A stretch of DNA of 64,000 nt from Atopobiaceae bacterium (GTDB taxonomy: Bacteria; Actinomycetota; Coriobacteriia; Coriobacteriales; Atopobiaceae), in contig JAFWIE010000035.1 of the NCBI GenBank assembly GCA_017533825.1, positions 1 through 64,000 on the forward strand. Reading direction: 5' to 3'. A program made the translations under genes and the position numbers. This document shows positions 1 through 60,514 of this stretch, in pieces. Below the pieces are notes generated by a model. It saw only the letters and a list, made by a program, of their open reading frames with translations. It did no database searches and was not told where the DNA came from. Each line of letters opens with the position of its first letter. Within the stretch, counting starts at the first letter, position 1.

Positions 1-384
1 GGGGCTTGTGGCACGGAGCCCCGCGGCCCCCTAACGGGATCGGGGCTTGTGGCACGGAGCCCCGCGGCCCCCTAACGGGATCGGGGCTTGTGGCACGGAG
101 CCCCGCGGCCCCCTAACGGGATCGGGGCTTGTGGCACGGAGCCCCGCGGCCCCCTAACGGAATCGGGGCTTGTGGCACGGAGCCCCGCGGCCCCCTAACG
201 GAATCGGGGCTTGTGGCACGGCTTCTAACGGATTGGCAACTTGTGGCATGCCACAAGCTTCTTTTCCATAAGAATCCGTGCCACAACCTCCTGTTTTGTT
301 AGACGGTCTGCCACAACCTGCCAAAGCATTAGGAGGTCTTGGCGGTGTCCTTCCGCTCCTCGCCACAACCTGCCAATCTGTTAG
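1..384. repeat. Phased array of a 24-bp bipartite motif (array 1)
   Basis: The unit is CTAAC-N10-CTTGTGGCA (24 bp). Forward units start at 31, 72, 113, 154, 195 and 225. The tail of another unit opens the window at 1-13, so the array begins further upstream. Reverse-complement units lie at 249-272, 279-302, 309-332 and 361-384. The last forward and first reverse units abut head to head, giving the palindrome TTGTGGCATGCCACAA at 241-256. Spacers between units are only 17, 6 or 28 bp, so repeat distances are 41, 30 or 52 bp. The first five spacers are nearly identical in sequence; the reverse side is more diverged. No gene lies here. An identically built array occurs at 34961-35191. Confidence 0.9.
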
Positions 385-31401: not shown

Positions 31402-31485
31402 GGGAAACGTCTTAAGCGAACCTTTTGATAGAACCTCACCTTTCGTGGGCAAGATAGGTTCATCGGCCGGACGAAAGGGGAGATG

Positions 31486-32727
31486 ATGAACATTGCCATC
31501 AACAAACTCTCAGCTCTGAAGCTTATGCGAAGCGTTCGGGAGGCTCGAGAAGACCGAGCATGGAACTTGGTGCGTCGCGATCTGGTGGCCCCTAGCCCCT
31601 ATCTGGCGACTCGCTGGTCGCCGAGCGTCATCGACCTGTCCAGGTTTGGCAAGGCGGGAGAATTCTCAGATGACGCCCCGCTTTCGGTGGCCGTTCCCTC
31701 GGCGCGCAATCGTCTGCGGATGAAGAGCGCCGCGAATACTGTGTATGGAGAAGGGCTGCCGGCGGGCTCCTTTCTTGACCTTGGCGGTGGTGTGTTCATA
31801 AGCTCACCTGAGCTCTTGTTCGTGGAGGCAGCTTCGATCATGAGTACGGCTGCGCACGTGTTGCTGGGATACGAGCTTTGCGGTGAGTATGCTCGTGATG
31901 CCCTGAGTCCCGTTGGCGGAAAGGCGGCCATGAACATCCCTCCGGTCACCACAGTACAAAAGATCTCGGCCTTCTTGGACAAATGCAAGGGCATCCACGG
32001 CCTCACGGCGGCGAAGCGGAACCTGCGCTACGTTGCAGACAACGCGTGGTCGCCTTTCGAGTCGATTGTGTCTACGCTGCTTGTCTTGCCCATATGGGAA
32101 TTGGGCTACGGCTTTCGCGGTGTGATCTTGAACAAGCGACAAACTGTTGTGGGAGGTCGGTCGGTTGGTGAGGTGGGGTCACGCGTGCCCGACATATTGA
32201 TTGCGGGGACTAAGGTTGGCATCAATTACGATGGAAGTGGCCATTTGGACCTCGATTCCATAGCGTGGGCTGCGGTGACGGCAAGGGAGAATCCCCAAGA
32301 TGAGGAGGCGCAGGAGAATCTGCGCAAGGCAATTGCGCGGGTTCGCGCGAAGGTGGTGGATGACAAGCGGCGTGATCGTGAGTTGGGTTCGAGTGGACTT
32401 CTGGTCATGCCGGTTACGAAGGAGGACCTGTATGAGCCGGGCCGCTTCGAGGCGTTGGTACATCTCATACTTGATGGGATGGAGCGCGATGCGTTGCTTG
32501 AATCGCGAGAACAACGATCCTTGCTGATGAATCGTGCACTTGCGCGCAAAAGACAAGAGATGGTGTGGTCATTGTTGCCGGGGGAGCGAGGACACACTCT
32601 TGCATGTAAGTTGGCGCGCGAAGAGGAGGCGAGAATGCGGGGGACAGTGCCCGTCCAAGTGCTTCCTCCTACCATAGTGTACATTCTGCAAGGGGAGAAA
32701 AACATTGATGTGAGAAATGCCAGTTGA
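31486..32727 (+). CDS. PD-(D/E)XK nuclease-like protein of a Coriobacteriia accessory family
   Basis: 413 residues. The centre (about 190-260) looks like an endonuclease fold: SPFESIVSTLLVLP, GSRVPDILI, VGINYDGSGH. From memory, a multi-copy family in Coriobacteriia has this arrangement with ...CDL...AVEYDSD; here the expected Glu before YDG is Asn (INYDG), which may abolish or alter cleavage. A basic patch follows (DDKRRDREL) and then VMPVTKEDLYEPGRFEAL. The C-terminal 16 residues are encoded by the second 94-bp element. The start may be 31483 or 31486; AAAGGGGAG at 31474-31482 favours 31486. It interrupts the arcA-arcB pair. Its role is unknown; defence or an addiction-type function is possible. 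Confidence 0.6.
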   Translation: MNIAINKLSALKLMRSVREAREDRAWNLVRRDLVAPSPYLATRWSPSVIDLSRFGKAGEFSDDAPLSVAVPSARNRLRMKSAANTVYGEGLPAGSFLDLGGGVFISSPELLFVEAASIMSTAAHVLLGYELCGEYARDALSPVGGKAAMNIPPVTTVQKISAFLDKCKGIHGLTAAKRNLRYVADNAWSPFESIVSTLLVLPIWELGYGFRGVILNKRQTVVGGRSVGEVGSRVPDILIAGTKVGINYDGSGHLDLDSIAWAAVTARENPQDEEAQENLRKAIARVRAKVVDDKRRDRELGSSGLLVMPVTKEDLYEPGRFEALVHLILDGMERDALLESREQRSLLMNRALARKRQEMVWSLLPGERGHTLACKLAREEEARMRGTVPVQVLPPTIVYILQGEKNIDVRNAS

Positions 32728-34960: not shown

Positions 34961-35191
34961 CTAACGGAATTGGGGCTTGTGGCACGCCGAGGGGGGAGGT
35001 CCTAACGGAATTTGAGCTTGTGGCAGAGAGTCTAACAAAAACGGAGGTTGTGGCGTGCCGCAAGGTCACTTTTCGTTAGAGGCCGTGCCACAACCTCGAG
35101 ATCCGTTAGGCGCCGCGTCGCAGCCGTGCCACAACCTCGAGATCCGTTAGGCGCCGCGTCGCAGCCGTGCCACAACCTCGAGATCCGTTAG
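34961..35191. repeat. Phased array of the 24-bp bipartite motif (array 2)
   Basis: Forward units start at 34961, 35002 and 35032. Reverse units lie at 35056-35079, 35086-35109, 35127-35150 and 35168-35191. As in array 1, the two central units abut head to head (48 bp), the next unit on each side is 6 bp away and the next 17 bp away. Repeat distances are 41, 30, [48-bp centre], 30, 41, 41. The last two reverse units are identical, spacer included, suggesting recent duplication. It fills most of the gene-free stretch 34836-35326; the remainder shows nothing I can name. Confidence 0.9.
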
Positions 35192-60125: not shown

Positions 60126-60495
60126 GCGAAGTGGGCCAGACAATCGCGGAAACGCCCGCCCGATAAGGCGGGAAGGTTATGAGGAAAGTCCGGGCTCCAC
60201 AGGGCAGAAAGCCGGCTAACGGCCGGGCGGGGTGACCCGACGGAAAGCGCCGCAGAAAAGAAGACTCCCGCTGCCCGCCCCCGGCGGGTGAGAGAAAAGC
60301 TGAAACGGTGGTGTAAGAGACCACCAGCACCTTGGTAACAGGGTGGCTTGGCAAGCCCCTTTCGGAGCAAGCGCGAATAGGAGCGCGATGGTGTGGCCCG
60401 CACTGCGCTCGGGTAGCGTGCTCGAGGCCAGCGGTGACGCTGTCCCTAGATAAATGATTGTCCACGACAGAACCCGGCTTACCGGCCCACTTCGC
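60126..60495 (+). ncRNA. rnpB: RNase P RNA, bacterial type A
   Basis: The ends GCGAAGTGGGCC (60126-60137) and GGCCCACTTCGC (60484-60495) form helix P1. The universal elements GAGGAAAGTCCGGGCTCC (CR-I, 60180-60197) and ACAGAACCCGGCTTACC (CR-V, near 60468-60484) are both present, as are AGAGACCACCAGC and GGTAACAGGGTG in between. The length of about 370 nt fits type A. Catalytic RNA of tRNA 5' processing. Confidence 0.96.
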
Positions 60496-60514
60496 ACGCA
60501 TGGATGAGAAAAGT

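Follow-up and report, generated by a model that had tools for sequence, protein, structure and literature searches.

Mirror-image arrays of regularly spaced 24-bp units, with motifs that differ between species, in a genus of the Atopobiaceae

Introduction

The window analysed here, a stretch of 64,000 nucleotides from an Atopobiaceae bacterium, opens with a short repeat whose copies reverse their orientation at a single point. What kind of element is this, does it belong to one locus or to many, and what would hold its units at such regular distances? We address these questions in the 4.23-Mb draft genome that carries the window (G000), in a sister species (G011, MAG RUG14419, uncultured Coriobacteriaceae) and in the other members of the genus. 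All of the genomes are draft assemblies, in which repeat arrays tend to be poorly resolved.

Results

Two arrays in the window

The array at the start of the window (array 1) is made up as follows.

1..384, no strand: array 1, whole; ten full 24-bp units and a cut unit at the contig edge, with one head-to-head centre
5..13, plus strand: cut unit at the contig edge, inner half CTTGTGGCA only
31..218, plus strand: left arm, five units with a 41-bp period (spacer 17) at 31-54, 72-95, 113-136, 154-177 and 195-218; near-identical tandem copies
225..248, plus strand: innermost left-arm unit, its neighbour 6 bp away
241..256, no strand: head-to-head centre, TTGTGGCA abutting TGCCACAA, gap 0
249..272, minus strand: innermost right-arm unit (CTTATGGAAAAGAAGCTTGTGGCA)
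279..302, minus strand: right-arm unit, spacer 6
309..332, minus strand: right-arm unit, spacer 6, degenerate
361..384, minus strand: outermost right-arm unit, spacer 28

Six units lie on the plus strand and four on the minus strand. A preliminary description of this DNA had claimed ten 24-bp units with an exact head-to-head junction and spacer lengths limited to 6, 17 and 28 bp, and both claims were confirmed: the centre lies at 248/249, and the spacers outward from it are 6, 17, 17, 17 and 17 in the left arm and 6, 6 and 28 in the right arm. The left-arm copies with 17-bp spacers are 98-100% identical, and because they are near-identical tandem copies, their four spacers amount to a single independent one. 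CTAAC-N10-CTTGTGGCA was matched exactly by the six left-arm units and with 1-2 mismatches by the right-arm units, and TTGTGGCA has 16 occurrences in the window where 1.84 would be expected; no shuffle reached 16. Array 1 begins at the edge of contig C19, and contig C133 (L059) ends in the same 41-bp units as the start of the window; it therefore seems that the array was split by the assembly, and it probably continues on C133.

A second array of seven units (34961-35191, centre 35055/35056), which the preliminary description had overlooked, is syntenic with an array of the sister species (L074).

34961..35055, plus strand: array 2, left arm; units 34961-34984, 35002-35025 and 35032-35055, spacers 17 and 6
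35056..35191, minus strand: array 2, right arm; units 35056-35079, 35086-35109, 35127-35150 and 35168-35191, spacers 6, 17 and 17

The set in the genome and in its sister species

We found at least 19 arrays with a head-to-head centre in G000 and at least 12 in G011. A pattern of two opposed units, allowing up to 3 mismatches, returned 19 centres in G000 and zero control matches; in a weight-matrix scan of the G000 array regions the head-to-head gap was 0 in 19 of 19 cases, with no tail-to-tail pairs, and over both species the centres were exact in 31/31 arrays. The same-strand spacers of G000 were 6 bp (48 times), 7 (4), 16 (1), 17 (52), 18 (2), 24 (1), 27 (1), 28 (11) and 29 (2); when similar spacers were counted once per arm, the numbers became 42, 4, 1, 27, 1, 1, 1, 5 and 2, respectively. 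In the 31 arrays of both species the spacers were 6, 17 or 28 bp within 1 bp, with two exceptions. An even spread of spacers elsewhere in the genome, named beforehand as the outcome that would speak against the preliminary description, was looked for genome-wide and not found; the 6+11n series holds.

The lengths also follow position within the arm. Over 62 arms of the two species, the first spacer from the centre was 6 bp in 57, 7 bp in four and 17 bp in one; the second was mostly 6 or 17 bp, and those farther out were mostly 17 or 28 bp. Furthermore, the core is polar in nearly all arrays, with two different, alignable inner arms (A and B), and this common A/B core indicates that the arrays of one genome are copies of one ancestral element.

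All 12 of the sister-species arrays examined were syntenic with arrays of G000. Divergence was compared at these 12 orthologous loci, over the inner two units of each arm: base differences amounted to 4-8% in the TGCCACAA half of the unit and 5-8% in the GTTAG half, against 21-25% in the variable core of the unit and 25-35% in the spacer letters. The length of the first spacer was identical in 22 of 24 comparisons (the others were 7/6 and 17/6). Since fixed bases and spacer lengths were kept while the spacer letters diverged, motif and spacing have been under constraint after the two species split.

Same geometry with other motifs across the genus

The exact original motif is present in only 2 of 396 Coriobacteriia genomes, which suggested an element specific to two species, a view that profile searches overturned. 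A core sequence profile and then two broader ones were searched in the congeners, and the motif was learned for each species from its array loci. Arrays of the same architecture, mostly with other motifs, were found in 10 further species of the genus, giving 12 of 16 congeners in total. Intact arrays were missing with these profiles from 4 of the 16 genomes; the profiles were built stepwise from arrays already found and may miss species with further motifs (G003, G004, G007). The CTAAC-N10 motif of the preliminary description is real, but it is one species' version only. The consensus units, in a common outward register, are as follows.

G000 and G011: GCCACAAgcTCcnnTTcCGTTAGg
G015, with G006 similar: GCCACgaCntngAaTCcCAGCAGA
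G014: GGCACgACTCGcaATccCaGCAGA
G012: TGCACAGGTCGataTTcCGACAGa
G008: GcCACaGgTCccAAtcCCAGCAAA
G005: CTCGCCAAACGnaAttCCggCAGA
G010: CGCACgAAaCGCAAannCggCCGA
G001: CaCACtGTtcgCgATccCAGCAAA
G013: CACACGAAAggcaATccCAGCTCA
G002: CCTCACnGCGgCcAaTCCCgGCAA

Spacers were mainly 6 and 16 bp in G015, 6 and 17 in G014, 6 and 17-18 in G008, 6 and 16 in G001, 6 in G005, 6-8 in G010 and 6-7 in G013 and G002, while in G012 spacers of 16 and 18 bp were found and the 6-bp spacer was not. Over 12 species, 157 of 174 distinct spacers fell within 1 bp of 6, 17 or 28; a few of 55-59 bp are compatible with one missed unit, and some (16, 18, 19, 24) depart from the 6+11n series, by 1-2 bp or further. Because such off-series spacers exist and the 11-bp step slightly exceeds the 10.5-bp turn, some of the regularity may go back to an ancestral array. 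Spacers within one array are not independent, and the main weight of the phasing lies in the agreement between species and motifs.

The centre gap behaved in a similar way. In the cross-species register it was 0 in G015 and G006, 1 in G005, 1 in G014 (14/15), 2 in G000 and G011, 11 in G008, G010, G012 and G013, and -9 in G001; in G002 it was 8-9, or about 10-11 after a one-base shift of register. Each species thus has its own constant gap, of about -9, 0-2 or 10-11, and the gap itself steps by about one helical turn between species. A detector independent of the motif recovered the known arrays, with counts above nearly all of the background. Judged from these sequence comparisons, the geometry is conserved within the genus while the repeat sequence changes. 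Tandem duplication alone accounts for the identical 17- or 28-bp runs within an arm, but not for the same series across unrelated spacers and motifs, and its insufficiency, as argued in the preliminary description, is thereby borne out.

One congener, G009, in which no intact array was found, has a relic of a CTAAC-type array (L146, contig C385), and the sequence next to it resembles the right flank of array L050. Outside the genus, profile matches were weak and by inspection mostly chance-like, with L264 and L275 as possible exceptions. L264 (G258, another genus of the family) has at 1388-1670 four units like CCTGCTGAGAAAACTCGAGTTGTGGCA, two per orientation, with same-strand copies 105 and 92 bp apart, and may be a distant relative of the arrays. 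Two single motif-pair matches in unrelated phyla (L040, L042) have a spacer of 9 and look like chance. Nothing was found in viruses, phages and plasmids, in one scan or search each.

Discussion

Genomic placement, regulation and chromosome organisation

The arrays are intergenic: 89 of 92 overlap genes called by a simple purpose-made caller by at most 30 nt. Would they be the operators of one transcription factor? For many of them a start codon follows about 95-190 bp downstream, and an array precedes feoAB in G000, G011, G008 and G010 (L101, L102, L108, L112). However, 17 of the 92 lie between convergent genes (+-), often 5-20 bp past a stop codon, and the other flanking-gene contexts are all occupied too (-- 33, ++ 20, -+ 19). 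The genes beside the arrays are functionally unrelated and form no coherent downstream set. A single regulon was therefore rejected as an account of the whole set; we regard operators as improbable, and the repressor complex offered in the preliminary description finds no backing here. The feoAB arrays carry three motifs in the four species, which suggests that some array positions are older than the motifs. No array was detectable in the orthologous gaps next to rpsI in congeners.

Intergenic sites in every gene orientation, stable positions between the sister species, a symmetric centre and constrained phasing would also suit chromosome-organising or partition-like sites, with a nucleoid or centromere-binding protein occupying 10-20 arrays dispersed over each chromosome. 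In plasmid centromeres (parC/ParR, omega-parS), asymmetric sites are repeated in tandem and are bound cooperatively from a single face. The arrays are like them in their tandem asymmetric sites and, as we propose, in cooperative binding on one face, but differ in having 10-20 dispersed chromosomal copies, a mirror centre and a motif that varies between congeners. This variation is also unlike chromosomal parS, a conserved 16-bp palindrome, whereas the array unit is asymmetric and species-specific. The universal chromosomal ParB, present in nearly all congeners, does not account for the pattern, and the extra ParB_N proteins differ in size between G000 (463 aa) and G011 (590 aa) and occur also in G003 and G004. 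No lineage-specific ParB stands out as a binder, and the partition complex of the preliminary description is not supported as such. Inspection gave no clear relation between the orientation of the A/B core and local GC skew, which argues against a polar chromosome signal such as KOPS. Taken as a whole, we consider a chromosome-organising or partition-like nature of the sites rather unlikely; the nucleoid-organising complex named in the preliminary description is neither borne out nor contradicted.

Comparison with hairpin, RNA and other dispersed repeats

REPINs and BIMEs are dispersed intergenic inverted pairs of short units, in species-specific families with possible intragenomic spread (PMC3116915, PMC3733652). 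The arrays share with them the inverted doublets in extragenic DNA and the species-specific units, and most congeners, G000 and G011 included, have one long Y1 transposase gene (RAYT-like, PF01797). In G011 this gene is the sole Y1 match; G000 has in addition four short IS200-type Y1 transposases (contigs C71, C11, C115 and C2). However, the 24-bp unit is not palindromic (score 0.46-0.54, against 0.46-0.56 when shuffled), its folding energy is near that of shuffled units in most species, and the tags are rare, with GTAG/CTAC in 0-3 and CGTC/GACG in 0-11 units per species. The arrays further differ from REPINs in being extended by direct repeats at 30, 41 or 52 bp. No arrays were present within the 6-12 kb examined around eight long Y1-transposase loci, and G012 has arrays and no PF01797 match. 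With palindrome, tags and RAYT linkage all wanting, a REP/REPIN/RAYT origin was rejected.

A structured RNA or RNA hairpin fares no better. Array arms do not covary, and arms of the same array are no more complementary to each other than arms of different arrays (one of nine tests gave p = 0.027); helical phasing is unexpected for RNA, and Rfam gave no match at the arrays. The sole Rfam match in the window is the class A RNase P RNA at 60128-60497. An RNA element or a REP/REPIN-type hairpin repeat is thus very improbable.

CRISPR arrays have near-identical repeats in a single orientation and unique spacers of about 25-40 bp; the present spacers of 6-28 bp, mirror centre and diverged repeats do not fit them. 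Pneumococcal BOX elements are dispersed intergenic repeats whose internal tandem modules vary in number. The arrays resemble them in being intergenic, dispersed and variable in tandem unit number, but have the helical phasing and the mirror-image arrangement of one unit that BOX elements are not known to have.

A mobile origin

The arrays might instead be miniature mobile elements, namely the joined, cargo-free, multi-site ends of a transposon of IS21, Mu, Tn7 or IS607 type, copied by a transposase encoded elsewhere, with the motif following the transposase. The ends of IS21, Mu and Tn7 each hold several asymmetric bipartite transposase sites of 20-24 bp, in inverted orientation and in unequal numbers. 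The arrays resemble these ends in their several asymmetric bipartite sites per arm, inverted arms and unequal numbers; they differ in having no element body or cargo, no target duplication seen, strict 6+11n spacing and at least 10 variants in one genus. In the IS607 family, four helically phased 9-bp direct repeats of IS1535 nucleate a filament of the transposase TnpA (PMC6188088). Directly repeated, helically phased motifs and a cooperative filament are likenesses of the IS1535 left end to the arrays, but its 9-bp motifs form the end of a gene-bearing element, whereas the array units are 24-bp, bipartite, mirror-image and gene-free.

Several features favour mobility. The polar core marks the arrays of a genome as dispersed related copies, and those of G015 and G006 are mostly 2+3-unit copies of one element. 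No motif family extends beyond one or two species, and the array sets mostly adjoin different genes where the motifs differ between species. However, the 12 syntenic arrays of the sister species are constrained at the same loci, unlike decaying insertions, and the feoAB arrays share a position under three motifs. Among the exact matches in G000, isolated single units were not apparent, and no array was found to adjoin a transposase. The motif matched no known transposon end, the other outcome named beforehand as speaking against the preliminary description; neither excision, target duplication nor an alignable empty site was seen where the rpsI and feoA gaps were compared. We hold a mobile element to be quite possible, though short of probable. 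Should the binding protein turn out to be a transposase, the arrays would count as a new form of miniature transposon with multi-site ends.

A proposed protein-DNA assembly

The arrays are probably sites in double-stranded DNA at which a sequence-specific protein, evolving together with them, docks on one face of the helix. The docking of a protein on one helix face at many sites, as put forward in the preliminary description, gains strong support from the recurrence of the 6+11n series genome-wide, in the sister species and with other motifs, and from a centre gap that is quantised too. Such a protein would carry a pair of recognition modules, the first contacting the inner, GCCAC-type half of the unit and the second its outer half. 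With units 30, 41 or 52 bp apart, each copy would sit on nearly the same face of the duplex, and cooperative assembly would let two filaments or ladders grow outward from the mirror centre, where the two innermost proteins would meet. The innermost step is almost always the short one (30 bp), and the outer sites lie one or two turns farther away. The specificity of the protein and all arrays of a genome would have changed repeatedly within the genus, the geometry being kept.

As for purpose, our first guess, held tentatively, is that the arrays are dispersed miniature elements with paired arms to which a multi-site recombinase or transposase binds, and that they were later retained for protein docking. 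Next, as a less probable purpose, comes a role of the bound arrays in chromosome organisation. On balance, we lean slightly towards a genus-wide and previously undescribed nucleoprotein system, in which a fast-evolving protein and 10-20 mirror-image phased arrays per chromosome would jointly switch recognition sequence under strict geometry (units at 30+11n bp, centre gap in one-turn steps). Searches of the open literature, with most subscription journals outside their coverage, returned no description of such arrays.

The architecture, phasing, constraint, species-specific motifs and intergenic placement define a DNA element by three-dimensional geometry rather than by sequence, with at least 10 motif versions under one spacing rule in one genus. 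Spacing conserved across differing motifs points to a fast-evolving DNA-binding protein, and the natural variants make protein-DNA co-evolution and cooperative assembly directly testable. Repeat searches based on motifs miss systems of this kind, as the 2 of 396 genomes of the class reached by the exact motif against 12 of 16 congeners reached by profiles illustrate.

Other observations

A separate long, near-perfect inverted repeat (AATCCTGYGGTTATATGA...) occurs between genes in at least two copies in G014 (L145, 1328-1424, and L164).

In three species with different motifs, the stop codon of genes for one protein family of about 390 aa (L056:410-1591, L236:2111-3478, L208:3282-4265) lies 7-16 bp from an array. 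The L056 protein and its relatives had no match in Pfam, NCBIfam or PADLOC, and since such sharing can arise by chance at an estimated 3000 or so gene families per genome, we regard it only as a lead. In G008, arrays flank the gene of an L056-type protein on both sides. A distant relative of the same family is encoded in the window at 31483-32727.
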